Below are positions 57,939-64,000 of a stretch of 64,000 nt of DNA, piece by piece. The DNA lies in NCBI RefSeq assembly GCF_029433105.1, contig NZ_JARNTW010000015.1:1-64000 (forward strand). Reading direction: 5' to 3'. A program made the translations under genes and the position numbers. A model generated the notes under the pieces. That model did no database searches and was not told where the DNA came from. It worked only from the letters and a program-made list of their open reading frames with translations. Each line of letters begins with the position of its first letter. The first letter of the stretch is position 1. The DNA is from Runella sp. MFBS21. Its GTDB lineage: Bacteria; Bacteroidota; Bacteroidia; Cytophagales; Spirosomataceae.

Positions 57939-58619
57939 ATGAAAAATAATGAGATGCGAATTCGCAAACTTGACTCCTCAGTATTGGTAGCCAAAGAAGA
58001 GCCTTTTTCATGTGAGGTACTTAGTAAGCTCCTTGAAAGAGAAGGGTTTGATGTAGTGGGCAGAGCAAATGAACTAGATGATCTAATCCAAAAAATCCAC
58101 ACAAAAAAACCTAAATGTGTTATTGTTGAAGCCAATCTTATTGGAAAGGAAACGAATCATTTATTGAAGGAACTCGCCAGTACTACTCACCCACCTAAGC
58201 TAGTCCTTTATTTTAATGCTTCAAATTCTAAGGAATTGTCAAAAGCGCTCGATGCAAACTTTAACGGTTATCTATATTCGGAAGACCGGCTCGATGAACT
58301 TTACAAATGCCTACTTTATATTCAAACGCAATCTAAATACTATAGTGATGGATTTAAAGATTTAATGAAGAAATTAGGCCTTAAAGAAATAGATAGCGAT
58401 ACCCAGCAAAGACTCAAATCTCTAACAAAAAGAGAGAAGCAAATCCTGTACTTAGTGACAGAAGGCCTTACAGGCTATGAGATTGCGGATTCGCTTTGTA
58501 TAAGTTATCGAACATTAGCAAATCACAAACAAAACTTAATTCAAAAACTAGGTATTGATAGCAATCGCCATCTATTGAAATTTGGATTGCAGATTAAATC
58601 GTATTTAGATAGTATCTAA
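57939..58619 (+). CDS. LuxR-type regulator with atypical receiver domain
   Basis: 226 residues. The N-terminal receiver-like domain (about 10-125) keeps the fold pattern, but the acidic pair reads AKEE and the phospho-acceptor position reads VIVEANL, with Glu in place of Asp. C-terminal LuxR HTH is normal (LTKREKQILYLVTEGLTGYEIADSL, YRTLANHKQNLIQKLGI). It therefore probably works without phosphorylation, or is locked on by the Glu (inference). No kinase gene adjoins. The upstream 21-bp repeats suggest LytTR control. Confidence 0.87.
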   Translation: MKNNEMRIRKLDSSVLVAKEEPFSCEVLSKLLEREGFDVVGRANELDDLIQKIHTKKPKCVIVEANLIGKETNHLLKELASTTHPPKLVLYFNASNSKELSKALDANFNGYLYSEDRLDELYKCLLYIQTQSKYYSDGFKDLMKKLGLKEIDSDTQQRLKSLTKREKQILYLVTEGLTGYEIADSLCISYRTLANHKQNLIQKLGIDSNRHLLKFGLQIKSYLDSI

Positions 58620-58651: not shown

Positions 58652-59683
58652 TTAGAGCCTCATTCTGTTGGCTGTGAATGCATCTCTAAAAGTATTGAAA
58701 CGATTTCTAGACATGACGAGCTCACGCACTTCAGTGGGTGTTTTAATGTAAAGTATGTATTTCCCTTTTTCCCAATACAAATAACTATCTAAAAGGCTTA
58801 GATTGACGATAAAACTCCTATGGCCTCTAAAAAAATGTAGCGGGTCAAGTTCTTCTTCTAAAATCGTTAGCGATTTTGTAATCCTAAAACGCCCTTTAGG
58901 GTGCTCTACATAATACCTTTCTTCAATAGTTTCAAAGAAATAGCACTCTTCTACTTTGAGATAGAGTTCACCCGTGCTAGTTTTTGCTTCAATCAAACGT
59001 AAGTAATTTTCAGAACGAGGCGGTGCTACGAGCTCCACTTTCTCTATCTTAGGCAAAGCTTTGGAGGTAGCTATCTCAACTTTAGGCGGCGCAGGGGTGG
59101 TTTCTGTTTCAGGTTTCAAAAACGAAACGTTATTAGAGATACTTTTGAGCGAAGCATTACTCTCTAAAAAATCCTTTACTAAGGATACGTTGATCAATAT
59201 ATACCCTAACAAAGTGACAAAGGGTAAGTATAAAAAATAAGTTTGGAAAGTAAATCCATTAAATATGTACAAATCTAAGTACCTATTAAAAGAATAGTTA
59301 GGAAACTCTCTCAACAAGAACCTAACATGTAAAGTAATAGGGAAGAAAAGAAAGAATGCTATCAAAAAAAGCGGTAAAAACTTAGCCTCGTATTTGATAA
59401 GGGAAAAGAAGTTGGTGTTGACTTGTCTAATTCCCATGAATCGGTGAAAAATATCAATCAAAAACACCAATATATACAATGTAAACAATTCAGGAGCTAC
59501 AATCCCTAAGAACAGATTTTTGAGATAATCAAAGAGCGTCTGATAAGAGCTATACACGTACCATTTTGTCTCCGGAGAGGTTGCCCATCCTATAATTTCG
59601 CAAAACAATACCACTCCCAAAAGGAAAATCAAACCATTTTGGGGGCTTCTATAAAACGAGCGTGTAAGTACCAGTGACCTCAT
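58652..59683 (-). CDS. membrane-anchored LytTR regulator
   Basis: 343 residues. Four hydrophobic segments in the first 170 residues (about 15-34, 48-74, 95-117, 150-170), a Pro/Thr-rich linker (about 190-225) and a C-terminal LytTR domain (about 235-340: CYFFETIEERYYVEH, FFRGHRSFIVNLSLLDSYLYWEKGKYILYI, VMSRNRFNTFRDAF). It would bind DNA from the membrane and sense something there without a phosphorelay. Divergent from the peptide gene and convergent with the atypical regulator, so it is the natural candidate for binding the 21-bp repeats. Confidence 0.9.
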   Translation of the reverse strand: MRSLVLTRSFYRSPQNGLIFLLGVVLFCEIIGWATSPETKWYVYSSYQTLFDYLKNLFLGIVAPELFTLYILVFLIDIFHRFMGIRQVNTNFFSLIKYEAKFLPLFLIAFFLFFPITLHVRFLLREFPNYSFNRYLDLYIFNGFTFQTYFLYLPFVTLLGYILINVSLVKDFLESNASLKSISNNVSFLKPETETTPAPPKVEIATSKALPKIEKVELVAPPRSENYLRLIEAKTSTGELYLKVEECYFFETIEERYYVEHPKGRFRITKSLTILEEELDPLHFFRGHRSFIVNLSLLDSYLYWEKGKYILYIKTPTEVRELVMSRNRFNTFRDAFTANRMRL

Positions 59684-59758
59684 GGCTCCTCAAATAACAT
59701 AAAATTCTTAACCTCTAAACAACCTTCTTATCAGACATAGGCTGATAAAATCACTTTG

Positions 59759-59791
59759 CAAAGATACAAATTAGTCAATTATTACTACAAA
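59759..59791 (-). promoter_or_regulatory. promoter of the LytTR regulator gene
   Basis: On the minus strand TTTG (59791-59788), 21 bp, then TATCTTTG (59766-59759): both boxes match the Bacteroidota consensus at normal spacing. Transcription would start near 59752, about 70 bp before the ATG at 59683. Confidence 0.7.
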
Positions 59792-59842
59792 CCTTTTCAA
59801 ATATAGCCATTAATGCGGATTTACTAGCATGCATAGGTGGTG

Positions 59843-59850
59843 TACCTTTG
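59843..59850 (+). promoter_or_regulatory. -7 box of the peptide-acyltransferase operon
   Basis: TACCTTTG matches TAnnTTTG. A TTTA at 59820-59823 lies at -33 spacing (19 bp gap). The start codon of the peptide is about 95 bp downstream. The box is back to back with the LytTR gene promoter in the same 269-bp intergenic region. Confidence 0.5.
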
Positions 59851-59952
59851 TATCGTTGAAAGTGTCTAAAAAACAACACGTTGCACTTTCATCGTCCTTT
59901 TGTGTGCACTCAAACTATCTCATGTTTCACTTATCAAAAATTTATAATTATC

Positions 59953-60132
59953 ATGAAAAGCTCATTTGAAATCAAGGCAAAAAAATCTTTGGATACACTT
60001 ATCCGTGATGGCAAATTCTATGCCAAAAATGAATTCAGCAAAGTACTTAACTTCGGAGATAAAGATCCATATGCATCTTGCTGGGGCATTACTATCAATT
60101 CGCAAGCTGAGAAAAATCTAGTTGTACAGTAA
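59953..60132 (+). CDS. 59-residue peptide, possible precursor modified by the next gene
   Basis: Starts at the ATG at 59953 (MKSSFEIKAKKSLDTL). The first half is basic and helical; the second half contains FGDKDPYASCWGITIN and ends NLVVQ, with a single Cys. No signal peptide and no known domain. It has its own promoter and lies 13 bp ahead of an acyltransferase gene. The layout is that of a ribosomal peptide precursor followed by its modifying enzyme, with the first part as leader (inference). It could also be a small regulatory protein. Family unknown. Confidence 0.65.
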   Translation: MKSSFEIKAKKSLDTLIRDGKFYAKNEFSKVLNFGDKDPYASCWGITINSQAEKNLVVQ

Positions 60133-60145
60133 ACATTAGCAAGTT

Positions 60146-61255
60146 ATGAACTCTTCGGATTTTGCTAAGTATAAAAGTGCGCTTCTTGATTGTGAAGGTG
60201 CGCTTGACCGAGTAAATCTGCTTCAAGAAGAAGGTTATCTGGTGAGGTTTGCCATTTTTTCAGCAAATCTCGCCAATTTCCTCCCTGAGATTCCATTAGA
60301 TGAACACGCCTCTTTATTCAAAAAATTGCTAGTAAATCTTGCTTTTGAAAGTTTTGACCGCAATGTATTGAATATTGGTGATTTATGCAGCATACAGGGA
60401 GATAAATCTGTACTTAGCACGCCGACGACACCTAAAATTTTCTGTACTTTTCATTTAGGTTCATACCGTATCATTGCCAATTTGCTCATTCGCCTTGGTT
60501 ATAACTTTTCTACTATTGTACGAAAAGATGTATATACTCAACAGCTTGAATCGATGATGAGTTATACAGCTCGTATGAAAGAAAGGTATAATACCGAAAG
60601 TGATGTAAGAGTGCTTAATTCCGAAGATCCAAGTATTGTGCTCAAACTTGCCCGCGAGCTTAAAAATGGGCGATCAGTATTGGTTTATTTAGATGGTAAT
60701 ACTGGGTCGGGAGAAGAAAACTTTGACCAACTCAACTTTTTAAGCCAAAGAATCAACGTAAGAAAGGGGATGACCTACCTCAGTTATATATCTGGAGTGC
60801 CATTGGTACCTGTGATATCTTATCGTCAGCCCGATTATAGCAATGTAATGTATGTAGGAAAACCTATTTCGCCCGATAAGACAGTTACGAGAGAAGAATT
60901 TTCAAACACCACACTTCAGTCGTTGTTTGATTTCTTTGCCAAGTATCTTATTTCCTATCCCGAACAATGGGAAGGCTGGAATTACATACAAAATGCAATA
61001 GTCAATACCGAAAAAGTACACGCAGTACCGCCTCCGGCAGCCTACAAACGGTCTAGCTATGAATTCAACTTTAGCCGCTATAGCATTTTCGAATTGAAAG
61101 ATGCCGCCGTTTTATTTGATCGTAGGTTTTATTCGACTTACGAAATATCTGATAGTCTTCGAAAATACTTGATGAAATCACCTTTTGTCAATCCTATTCG
61201 AGTACTCGGAAAACCTATCTTTCAAGAACTTGTTAGGCAAGAAATTCTCATTTAG
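60146..61255 (+). CDS. LpxL/HtrB-like (LPLAT) acyltransferase family protein
   Basis: 369 residues, no membrane helix obvious at the N-terminus. The central part matches the LPLAT/HtrB pattern: FCTFHLGSYRIIANLL (His103), LKNGRSVLVYLDGNTGSGE, VRKGMTYLSYISGVPLVPVIS, followed by MYVGKPISPD. The HxxxxD/E catalytic motif is HLGSYR, with Arg108 where the acidic residue should be, so normal acyl transfer may be changed or lost. Lipid A enzymes of this family acylate glucosamine; coupling to a small peptide gene instead suggests peptide or lipid-linked substrate (inference). A strong terminator follows. Confidence 0.75.
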   Translation: MNSSDFAKYKSALLDCEGALDRVNLLQEEGYLVRFAIFSANLANFLPEIPLDEHASLFKKLLVNLAFESFDRNVLNIGDLCSIQGDKSVLSTPTTPKIFCTFHLGSYRIIANLLIRLGYNFSTIVRKDVYTQQLESMMSYTARMKERYNTESDVRVLNSEDPSIVLKLARELKNGRSVLVYLDGNTGSGEENFDQLNFLSQRINVRKGMTYLSYISGVPLVPVISYRQPDYSNVMYVGKPISPDKTVTREEFSNTTLQSLFDFFAKYLISYPEQWEGWNYIQNAIVNTEKVHAVPPPAAYKRSSYEFNFSRYSIFELKDAAVLFDRRFYSTYEISDSLRKYLMKSPFVNPIRVLGKPIFQELVRQEILI

Positions 61256-61268
61256 AGCTTGTCTCTAA

Positions 61269-61322
61269 GCCTCTAAACGCAAAAAATCTCCTAAATGCTG
61301 GAGATTTTTTGCGTTTAGAGGC
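61269..61322 (+). terminator. strong terminator of the peptide-acyltransferase operon
   Basis: A 23-bp stem (GCCTCTAAACGC and following, 61269-61291, with its complement 61300-61322) and an 8-nt loop, then TTTTTT. Confidence 0.9.
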
Positions 61323-61350
61323 TTTTTTCACCCTTATTTCAGGAAAGTTC

Positions 61351-61429
61351 ATAGTCATTTCACCGGGCAAAATAGTCATTTCACCGGCATTTATAGTCAT
61401 TTCACCGTCCAATAGTTAGATTTCACCGG
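61351..61429 (+). promoter_or_regulatory. four direct repeats with exact 21-bp period
   Basis: The cores TTTCACCGG, TTTCACCGG, TTTCACCGT and TTTCACCGG start at 61358, 61379, 61400 and 61421. The first three share the longer unit ATAGTCATTTCACCG. The spacing puts all copies on one face of the helix. The element is the same as at 57829-57865. It lies about 530 bp before the surface protein ATG; a TACCTTCG (61471-61478) after it may be a -7 box, giving a long leader. Confidence 0.75.
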
Positions 61430-61955
61430 TTCACCTAAAAAAGGGCATATAACTTGTATAAAATTCATTGTACCTTCGAGCATCGATTTGGAAGTAAAAA
61501 AAACGCCCAAATCAAAATGAAGTTTTCAAGAAGAAAATAGGTTTCTTGAAAGACATACAAAAACAGACTTAAAGCATTATAAAAATATTTTCAAAGTAGG
61601 GTAAAGTGTGTAGCATTGACCTCGCTCCTTTGGAGCGGGGTCATGTTGTTTTATATACCTATTCGAAAAAATCTTTGTTTTTGGCTCAATTATTGCCCAT
61701 TTAGACAAAATCCTTCCCAATAAAGCTTCATATGGGTACTTTTCCATGAAGGGAAGACTAGTCAATCTCCTATAAACCAGTCACTTATCGCAAAAGTATA
61801 TTACATACCTTACCTTTATTTATCCTTTAAGACTATTTAGTGGACATATTGGTATGTTTTTTGATACTAGAATAGACATTATCATGTTAAATAGGTTCTC
61901 TATTTCTTCCGATAATCAAGTCAATCTATTCAATAGCACATTTATTCAAAAAACT
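61430..61955. other. leader or intergenic region before the surface protein gene
   Basis: About 525 bp with no convincing coding frame. It contains a 12-bp hairpin with one mismatch and 3-nt loop at 61617-61643 (TGACCTCGCTCC with GGAGCGGGGTCA), not followed by a clean T run. An in-frame ATG at 61884 is an alternative start for the next gene. Confidence 0.6.
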
Positions 61956-64000
61956 ATGTACACTCTATACAAGCGTACGTCCTTAATCAATGTAGTTTAC
62001 ATTCCCAAAAACACATTCTCTATCCTTATAGTTTTACTTTTAGGTTTACTAGGAAAGAGCTTTGGGCAAACTGTGGAAGGAACAGTTTTTAGAGATTTCA
62101 ATGCGGATGGGCAAATCACTAACACCTCCACTTTCAATGAAATAGGTGTGCCTAATATATTGGTTAGTGCATTTAGAGCCGATGGTAGTTTGGCAGACTC
62201 TGTCCGTACAGCTTCAGATGGTAGCTATGTTCTTACAGTAGGTAGCACGGCCGCTTTTCGTATCGAATTTAAAGATTTTTTAATCGGTGATTTTGAAGGT
62301 CCTTTTGCAGTTTCAGGAAGCCACACTTCTGTACAATTCGTCAATGGAGGAAGTACAGGAATAAATCTAGGCATCAATTACCCTGCTAATTATTGTGAAA
62401 CGGAAACTCCTCAAATGGTAACGACCTGTTTTGTCGCCGTTAACACTGCTATTGGGAGCTCTTCCTTGGGAGATCGTGATGCCTTGGTAGGTGCAGCTTA
62501 CAATGCAACAGATGATAACAAAGTCATCTCTCACTATGCTACCGTCAATGATATCGGCTCTGCATGGGGATTGACTTATAAAAGAGAAACAAAACAACTT
62601 TTTTCAACAGCTTTTACAAAACGTCATATTGGATTTACGCCCAAAGGGCCTGGTGCTATTTTTGTTACAAATATTAATAGCCTAGACACGACTACTACTG
62701 AGTTTTTTAATTTCGGAACTGTGGCGGGAGTAGATATGCATACTGATGTACCCACTGAACTAAGCGGTGGAAGACTCGATAGCTATGATATTCCTGCCTA
62801 CGATGCCGTCGGAAAGGTTGGTTTGGGAGATATTGATATTTCGGATGATGGCAAAACGCTATGGCTCACCAACCTTTCCAACCGAAAATTGTACTCACTC
62901 GACATCGCGACAAAAGATACAGTATCATATACGATTCCTAACCCATGTGCCGGTAAAAGCTATCGGCCTTTTGCTACTAAATTTTACCGAAACAAAGTGT
63001 ACGTAGGGGTCGTATGTACGCGTGAAGATGCTTCTACTAAAACAGATAGCGCAGGTTTAGCCGCCACGGTCTATGCTTTCGAAAATGGCACGTTTAGTCC
63101 GGTTCTCAATTTTCCTCTTACGTATGTTAAAGGCGCAAGTAATGCCGATGTCTCAGGAATTGCGCGAGCAGAATTGTGGCGCCCTTGGATTCAAGATTAT
63201 AATCCAGACCGCACAGGGCCTGTCAGTTTCCCTCAAGCTTGGTTGACAGATATTGAATTTGATGTAGATGGGTCTATGCTACTCGGTATTCGTGACCGTT
63301 TTGGGGATCAAGTAGGTTATCAAAACAGGAAACCTATCCAAGACGACCCTGATTTTATAAGTGGAATTACCCCTGGAGAAGTATTAAGAGCGGGTCCATG
63401 TGGTCCAAATGGCACTTGGCTCATCGAACAAAATGGTTCTGTCTGTGGTAGTACTCCTTCTTCTAACCAAAGCTCAGCCAATGGCCCTGGCAATGGGAAA
63501 TATTACTGGGGAGACCGTGTCCAAAACGGAGACAATCACCGTATGAGTTCGCAAGGCGGTATAGCAATATTAGCGGGAAGTGGTAAACTCGCTATGACAG
63601 CAGTAGACCCTACTGATGTATTTAACACTGGTGGTATCAAACGCCTCATCAACTCGAATGGAAATAAAGACGGTAACGCCACTGGAACCTCAGTCAATAC
63701 AAATGGAGGCGTCGTATTGTACGCAAGTGATGCTTTCGGCTACGGCAAGGCCAATGGAGTAGGTGATTTGGAAATCCTCTGTGCTCCTCAACCTATCGAA
63801 ATCGGAAACCGCATCTGGAAAGACTTGGATAAAGATGGTATCCAAGATGCCAATGAGCCTGGTATTGATGGCGTCACAGTTACACTTTGTGACTCTACTG
63901 GTGCTACTATTGCATCCGCACAAACTGCCAATGGAGGTCAGTATTATTTTTCTTCTGCCAACACTTCTGGAGGGCCTGCTTATGTCCAATATGAAGTTCC
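61956..64000 (+). CDS. large SdrD-B-like surface protein (partial, runs off the right edge)
   Basis: 681 residues are visible from the ATG at 61956; an ATG 24 codons upstream (61884) would put polar residues before the signal and is less likely. Signal segment IVLLLGLLGKSFGQ, then an SdrD-B-like domain (VEGTVFRDFNADGQ, about 40-110), a long central domain (about 130-600) with propeller-like strands (LGDIDISDDGKTLWLTNLSN, WLTDIEFDVDGSMLLGI), and a second SdrD-B domain (IEIGNRIWKDLDKDGIQDANEPG) cut by the edge. Secreted adhesin or sheath-like protein, the same class as the broken gene at 36995. The frame is intact throughout. Likely controlled by the four 21-bp repeats upstream. Confidence 0.87.
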   Translation, partial: MYTLYKRTSLINVVYIPKNTFSILIVLLLGLLGKSFGQTVEGTVFRDFNADGQITNTSTFNEIGVPNILVSAFRADGSLADSVRTASDGSYVLTVGSTAAFRIEFKDFLIGDFEGPFAVSGSHTSVQFVNGGSTGINLGINYPANYCETETPQMVTTCFVAVNTAIGSSSLGDRDALVGAAYNATDDNKVISHYATVNDIGSAWGLTYKRETKQLFSTAFTKRHIGFTPKGPGAIFVTNINSLDTTTTEFFNFGTVAGVDMHTDVPTELSGGRLDSYDIPAYDAVGKVGLGDIDISDDGKTLWLTNLSNRKLYSLDIATKDTVSYTIPNPCAGKSYRPFATKFYRNKVYVGVVCTREDASTKTDSAGLAATVYAFENGTFSPVLNFPLTYVKGASNADVSGIARAELWRPWIQDYNPDRTGPVSFPQAWLTDIEFDVDGSMLLGIRDRFGDQVGYQNRKPIQDDPDFISGITPGEVLRAGPCGPNGTWLIEQNGSVCGSTPSSNQSSANGPGNGKYYWGDRVQNGDNHRMSSQGGIAILAGSGKLAMTAVDPTDVFNTGGIKRLINSNGNKDGNATGTSVNTNGGVVLYASDAFGYGKANGVGDLEILCAPQPIEIGNRIWKDLDKDGIQDANEPGIDGVTVTLCDSTGATIASAQTANGGQYYFSSANTSGGPAYVQYEV

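Follow-up and report, generated by a model that had tools for sequence, protein, structure and literature searches.

A putative minimal RiPP cassette in Runella: a short peptide gene paired with an LPLAT-type acyltransferase carrying an RRE-like domain

Lipidated RiPPs are already known. As far as the cited sections describe them, fatty-acylated RiPPs are made by GNAT-family enzymes (PMC13060382, PMC9505594) and, in one case, by the lipoprotein pathway enzymes Lgt, LspA and Lnt (PMC12636315). The locus analysed here lies in a 64,000-nucleotide stretch of the genome of Runella sp. MFBS21 (NZ_JARNTW010000015.1, positions 1 to 64,000; "the window"). Selidamides and nostolysamides resemble it in the combination of a precursor with a dedicated acyltransferase, in the arginase companions of some clusters and in the fatty chain, which the Runella product would presumably carry. 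They are acylated by GNAT enzymes, according to the parts of two papers cited here (PMC13060382, PMC9505594), whereas the Runella enzyme has a predicted LPLAT fold with an RRE-like domain. DybA is similar in being a RiPP with a lipid at Cys. In the portion of its description that we cite (PMC12636315), Lgt, LspA and Lnt work on an N-terminal Cys of lipoprotein type, whereas no signal sequence was visible on inspection of the Runella peptide. Lipolanthines, goadvionins and lipoavitides are also RiPP lipopeptides, and three homologue loci (L098, L103, L121) carry LanB-like, AMP-ligase-like and ketosynthase-like genes near the enzyme, but the cited part of PMC13060382 presents these compounds as class III lanthipeptides whose lipids are N-terminal, in a GNAT context.

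Two further groups share single features with the locus. PatA and LpxL-LpxM/HtrB of the LPLAT superfamily have the same fold and the conserved His and Asp; they carry HX4D/E where the Runella family has HX4R/Q, and the latter has in addition an RRE-like domain and linked peptide genes. Grasp-with-spasm RiPPs are resembled by seven homologue loci with genes that cluster with GwsG/GwsS-like genes. These were family-checked in L104, where the TIGR04192/04193 homologues scored below the NCBIfam cut-offs. At the window locus, where the family search covered five proteins, no grasp-with-spasm gene was recognised. To our knowledge, the grasp-with-spasm pair as described includes no such acyltransferase.

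RRE-fused enzymes are common. The word 'acyltransferase' is absent from the main texts of the two RRE-Finder papers, and among the matches listed in the CC0, CC BY and CC BY-SA literature, a scope that could miss subscription papers, we could not find an LPLAT-type RiPP acyltransferase or maturase described. We consider it probable that the Runella locus is a minimal RiPP cassette whose LPLAT-type enzyme, guided by an RRE, acylates the peptide core at or near an invariant Cys.

Layout and control region of the locus

The host genome is 7.88 Mb in size and its closest match in the named collection was Runella zeae, with an enzyme 96% identical to that of the window. An ORF for a 59-aa peptide is followed, after a gap of 13 bp, by an ORF for a 369-aa enzyme (Table 1). 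The initial annotation had described this layout, with a promoter box of its own, a strong terminator and a divergent membrane LytTR regulator, and the description held in each part. The promoter box TACCTTTG, of the TAnnTTTG type that we take to be a -7 box, starts 110 bp ahead of the peptide start. The terminator has a 24-bp stem with a folding energy of -44.2 kcal/mol (z -10.8), and none of 200 shuffled sequences was as good. The LytTR protein has about four hydrophobic TM-like stretches (five windows of the scan, two of them overlapping) in addition to its LytTR domain.

Table 1. Features of the locus, in coordinates of the window.
Feature	Position	Strand	Basis
LuxR-type response regulator (receiver + GerE), conserved neighbour	57939..58619	+	Pfam PF00072, PF00196
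Membrane LytTR regulator, divergent from the peptide operon	58652..59683	-	LytTR PF04397, 7.8e-15
Intergenic control region with conserved blocks	59684..59952		alignment
-7 box (presumed) TACCTTTG (TAnnTTTG)	59843..59850	+	motif match
Putative precursor peptide, 59 aa, leader and core	59953..60132	+	ORF, comparison of relatives
Predicted LPLAT-fold acyltransferase fused to C-terminal RRE-like domain	60146..61255	+	Pfam, structure models
H103-L-G-S-Y-R108 motif, in place of HX4(D/E)	60452..60469	+	alignment of relatives
Invariant Asp183, candidate catalytic partner	60692..60694	+	D in 70/70 sequences
Predicted RRE-like domain, residues 305-369	61058..61252	+	AlphaFold2 model, Foldseek
Intrinsic terminator hairpin, then T run	61268..61323	+	folding energy

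Comparison with relatives indicated a conserved promoter region. In the 38 loci with precursors of the Runella type (type A, next section), a TAnnTTTG box was found 48-115 bp ahead of the first precursor in 36. Upstream of the box, intergenic blocks such as TAGTCAAT (59772-59779) and CGGAT (59816-59820) are conserved between the window and five Runella loci. Fifteen other aligned loci, from other Spirosomataceae, also have conserved upstream blocks, with different letters. The blocks were compared by eye with a LytTR site consensus, and we do not claim them as binding sites.

All 38 type-A loci had a divergent LytTR homologue no more than 1.1 kb upstream of the enzyme match, and a gene of the LytTR cluster was present in 50 of the 69 gene-called loci. 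A homologue of the LuxR-type regulator (by BLAST cluster) was found near 37 of the 38 type-A loci; the exception, L056, is a 3.9-kb contig. Judging from this arrangement, expression is probably controlled by the divergent LytTR protein and the LuxR-type regulator. In the receiver domain of the latter, the expected phospho-acceptor position, which we take to be the site of the phospho-accepting Asp, is occupied by Glu (VIVEANL); among 43 aligned rows, Glu was found in 38 and Asp in 2. With Glu in place of Asp, this regulator may not be switched by phosphorylation.

Downstream of the terminator, ATTTCACCG occurs four times at an exact spacing of 21 bp (61357, 61378, 61399 and 61420; span 61357-61428), and these are its only four copies in the window. 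The repeats are reminiscent of insertion-sequence ends. They are followed by the start of a very long protein (61854-64000), which runs off the window. A BLAST cluster with members of up to 2797 aa, to which this gene may belong, is found downstream in a few other Runella loci.

Precursor peptides in Runella and relatives

For relatives of the locus, one genome per species was scanned with sequence patterns in 84,980 species, giving 70 distinct loci. One of these, L122, is a 50-residue match from the scan and was left out of gene calling, which leaves 69 gene-called loci. The patterns used for the 70 named loci contained H-x-G-S and QWEGW, so that the conservation of these letters is partly built in; R108 and D183 of the enzyme lie outside the patterns.

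The Runella peptide resembles no known family. It had no match in NCBIfam and a single, chance-level match in Pfam (13.9 bits against a cut-off of 33.3), in agreement with its original description as lacking a known domain. The NHLP and Nif11 leader families were not matched by the window peptide (Pfam and NCBIfam) or by five other precursors (NCBIfam only).

A leader-family HMM was built from 10 type-A peptides, with seeds taken from the slot upstream of the enzyme, and was searched against the 5060 small ORFs of the 70 loci. It detected 45 copies in 38 loci. All 45 lie upstream of the enzyme on the same strand, 717 to 14 bp ahead of the point where the enzyme match starts, and all have Cys in the core. 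Four alignment columns are the same in all 39 unique sequences (M in column 1, F in 5, E in 28 and Cys in 47). Column 7 is I in 38 of them and column 26 is K in 37, while most remaining columns are variable. The comparison thereby brings out an apparent leader with the motifs K-x-F-x-I-K and AKxE, and a putative core with an invariant Cys, the single Cys of the Runella peptide, which lies within ...DPYASCWG.... Some loci have tandem precursors, with two copies in L076 and three each in L065, L066 and L083. The features expected of RiPP precursors at the gene level, a short ORF beside a maturase, a conserved leader, a variable core and often several copies, were thus all found, including the conserved leader and variable C-terminus beside the enzyme that had been predicted for relatives.

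The possibility that the peptide is a chance ORF was rejected on the basis of the 45 leader-HMM copies in relatives and of the codon comparison with R. zeae, which showed three synonymous differences and one non-synonymous difference (few changes, and weak when taken alone). Among 13 genomes of the genus, including its own, the same 10 carry both the enzyme and the peptide and the other 3 carry neither; the pairing is therefore not due to chance. The enzyme was matched in 21 of 59 genomes (its own included), with a leader-type peptide directly upstream in 17. As for the remaining four, G040 has a type-B precursor (see below) nearby and none was recognised in G017, G033 and G056; the match in G033 is weak (3.1e-5, 22% identity across 181 residues). 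A precursor-maturase pair is well supported by these sequence comparisons.

Other loci have precursors of other types. Peptides with an 'ELEERLE'-like leader (type B) are found in 15 further loci, and there were 58 matches in total. L090 alone has 12, an N run breaking up two of these, and L098 has 9. Cys was found in the second half of all 58, for which the seeds had been selected by leader motif and by Cys within the last 30 residues. Together with nine loci assigned by eye, these make up 24 loci with non-A precursors, so that Cys-containing precursors were found in 62 of the 70 loci (38 of type A and 24 of other types).

The initial annotation had held that acyltransferase homologues without any small peptide gene would speak against the pairing. 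This objection applies in part, alongside the 62 paired loci. No precursor was recognised in 8 of the 70 loci (L089, L100, L103, L106, L115, L118, L121 and L122), of which four are shorter than 11 kb, L089 and L121 about 21 kb, L103 16 kb and L100 13 kb; L089 has a precursor-looking ORF, ending IIIKCFSPDPL, below the HMM threshold. Nor was one recognised near the enzyme in L019, L020 and L126, or in L132, the 12 kb around L126.

When 395 genomes drawn evenly from the phylum were surveyed, with at most four candidates scored per genome, nine had an enzyme-profile match at E <= 1e-5: the Runella genome itself, two close relatives, three new genomes and three with weak partial matches (3e-7 to 6e-6). 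The enzyme family looks rare but scattered. In genomes drawn without the motif patterns, type-B-like ORFs were seen near the enzyme in G438 (L125/L131), G075 (L127/L133) and G040 (L049). The match in G438 is weak (6.7e-4, or 8.2e-5 when the wider locus is used). In the third new survey genome, G060 (L126/L132), no precursor was recognised.

Two small groups of loci from metagenome-assembled genomes (MAGs) have precursors of their own. In L108, L110 and L120 (gammaproteobacterial MAGs), a distinct precursor with N-terminal ..VVFRKK.. and C-terminal ..CRVV.. lies upstream, and a GMC-oxidoreductase gene (Pfam-checked in L108) follows the acyltransferase. In L111, L113 and L117 (Flavobacteriaceae MAGs), the precursors have an IRSQI leader and a Cys-rich core (CCGG..CC in L111 and L113), and a gene for an S41-type peptidase (Pfam-checked in L111 and L113) follows the enzyme.

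The acyltransferase and its C-terminal domain

The enzyme matched Lip_A_acyltrans (PF03279) with 23.6 bits, barely above the cut-off of 22.3. Its full-length AlphaFold2 model (mean pLDDT 82.4) matched the structures of PatA (3.1e-12) and LpxM (7.5e-11), so that by model comparison it has the LPLAT fold of the lipid A acyltransferases LpxL/HtrB. No GNAT family, as in the selidamides, was matched at E <= 1 in Pfam or NCBIfam. A PDB sequence search with the enzyme profile gave fibrinogen matches at E >= 0.03 only, which were taken as chance.

LPLAT enzymes have an HX4(D/E) catalytic motif. In the 70 aligned relatives, one of which has a gap here, the His is present in all 69 while the acid position is R in 65 and Q in 4. 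In a separate sequence set, the acid position is R in L018 and L019 and Ser in L020; neither D nor E was found in the 69 sequences or in these three. Other residues are conserved: His103 in 69 (one gap; the residue falls inside a locus-search pattern), Asp183 and Gly208 in all 70, and Arg206 in 67 (Lys in the others). The host genome encodes another PF03279 protein (L123) with a canonical HX4E motif (H-VANW-E), and a weak alignment with it places R108 over the canonical E. The initial annotation had called the enzyme LpxL/HtrB-like. The likeness stands for the fold and the Pfam match, but a true LpxL/HtrB was rejected because none of the 69 sequences retains the catalytic acid. Given this replacement, the enzyme might lack activity or serve another function.

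The residues after about 283 reach past the LPLAT part. An AlphaFold2 model of residues 283-369, made with 46 sequences, had a pLDDT of 89.7, with block values of 91-97 beyond the first ten residues and 93-97 for residues 305-369. It shows three strands (E30-35, E38-43, E48-52) followed by three helices (H54-60, H68-72, H74-82), with a short helix (H15-18) before them. This is the bbb-aaa order of secondary structure by which an RRE is defined in the cited part of Bregman 2025 (PMC12710340). In sequence searches, Pfam gave no convincing family for the domain, PF05402 (PqqD) matched none of 46 members, and a PDB sequence search with the RRE-domain profile gave two matches (E 0.24 and 1.8), taken as chance. 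When the model was compared by Foldseek with 350,542 PDB chains, giving 783 matches, the top eight were TbiB1 (five chains), the McbBCD complex, ThcOx and a lasso B1-leader complex. We take the matched parts of these chains to be RREs. The individual matches are weak: the best has an E-value of 0.16 and a prob of 0.91, and not one reaches E <= 0.001. TigE (8vpo) was matched with a TMq of 0.60. The excerpted text of two papers warns that poor E-values are to be expected for small domains (PMC12710340) and says that PF05402 overlooks many RREs (PMC7470986). A profile comparison with the N-terminal extension of neighbouring arginases, itself RRE-like by eye, gave a probability of 67%, which is suggestive only, and that with the N-domain of the neighbour protease was negative (2%). 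On the strength of the models, the C-terminal domain is likely an RRE.

Gene company, acceptor residue and alternative explanations

Neighbouring genes were clustered by BLAST linkage, and only named members were searched against families. In other families the enzyme often sits among RiPP-type genes. An arginase cluster was found in seven loci (L087, L090, L094, L097, L099, L112 and L119), a protease cluster in 11 (represented in L098 by just 167 aa at the edge of the locus), LanB-like genes in four (in L121, about 10 kb away) and ketosynthase-like genes in seven (in L104 at the locus edge, in the other six within about 5 kb of the enzyme). Family searches agreed for the arginase in L094 (PF00491, 5.6e-59), for LanB in L097 and L103, for AMP-binding, phosphopantetheinyl transferase, FabA-like and ketosynthase genes in L098 and for the ketosynthase in L121; a daptide- and LiaK/YydH-like metalloprotease in L094 scored below the cut-off. 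The ketosynthase-like genes would fit a dedicated acyl donor. The initial annotation had read a short precursor with one modifying enzyme as a RiPP layout. This reading gained support from the predicted RRE domain and from the apparent presence of homologues in RiPP clusters.

The company in type-A loci is simpler. Common to nearly all of them are the divergent LytTR gene, the LuxR-type regulator, the precursor or precursors and the enzyme; the next neighbour, common to 29 loci, is housekeeping-like by eye. Among the common neighbours, no exporter, leader protease or other modifying enzyme was recognised by eye. The window's genome gave no match to a daptide-type protease in a search that lacked a positive control and so weighs little. 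It has seven C39-type matches, on contigs C1, C4 and C72, and none on C7, the contig of the window.

A precursor with Arg directly before Cys occurred in all seven arginase loci and in 6 of 51 typed loci without arginase (P 6e-6, for related loci that are not independent). Eleven loci, including L110, L113, L117 and L120, which were assigned by eye and had no sequence entered, were untyped. Within type B alone the association is weak (7/0 against 4/5, P 0.03). The association with arginase points to the residues around the Cys as the modified site. The seven arginases are candidates for PF00491-type peptide arginases, which would yield Orn-Cys.

The main rival explanation is amine acylation as in selidamides. 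The enzyme would acylate an amine (Orn, Lys) or a freed N-terminus, and the Cys would serve for a disulfide, a ring or an acyl relay. We regard this as possible but on the unlikely side. The Arg-Cys precursors of the arginase loci suggest Orn-Cys, and the known acyl-RiPP enzymes, in the cited parts of two papers, acylate Orn, Lys or N-termini (PMC13060382; PMC12703449). On the other hand, no position of the type-A cores is consistently occupied by an amine residue, and Lys is missing after the Cys in some; the arginase cluster is missing from 62 of the 69 gene-called loci, and the Arg-Cys association has the weakness within type B and the relatedness of loci described above.

An improbable alternative is that the LPLAT domain is dead or altered, the protein being mainly a leader-binding scaffold or performing another reaction on the peptide. 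The replaced acid of the HX4(D/E) motif would be explained by this, but His103, Asp183, Arg206 and Gly208 are conserved and the neighbours common to type-A loci offered no other modifying enzyme. It is most improbable that the enzyme is an ordinary lipid A or phospholipid acyltransferase beside an unrelated small regulatory peptide: the weak PF03279 match and the relatives in fatty-acid/polyketide-type clusters where no precursor was found (L121, L019) could be so explained, but the host genome has a separate canonical HX4E homologue, and the conserved pairing, the tandem precursors and the RRE-like domain argue against it.

In the minimal RiPP cassette that we favour, the RRE-like domain would bind the precursor leader (K-x-F-x-I-K ... 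AKxE) and the LPLAT domain would take a fatty acyl chain from an acyl-thioester and attach it to the core. The acceptor would most likely be the invariant Cys (S-acylation, possibly followed by an S-to-N shift) or an adjacent amine. With a thiol as acceptor, the reaction would presumably depend less on the acid lost in this enzyme family. The product might be a secreted signal or an antibiotic. A bolder version, which we hold to be rather doubtful, is that the family represents an undescribed class of ribosomal lipopeptides, in which RRE-fused LPLATs S-acylate an invariant core Cys with HX4R adapted to the thiol and, in Spirosomataceae, the adjacent membrane LytTR protein senses the product as a signal.

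If the favoured explanation is true, lipidation of ribosomal peptides has drawn on a second, unrelated fold, LPLAT in addition to GNAT, guided by a built-in leader-binding domain. The two-gene cassette would be easy to express and might offer a compact means of lipidating designed peptides, and the family would provide a handle for lipopeptide mining in Bacteroidota. It would also raise the question of what membrane LytTR regulators sense.

In L098, L103 and L121, the LanB-like, acyltransferase, AMP-ligase, phosphopantetheinyl transferase, FabA-like and ketosynthase genes form candidate lipid-bearing lanthipeptide clusters. The gene order of L098 matches that of L103, a Bacteroidota MAG, so the Thalassovita label of L098 may be wrong.
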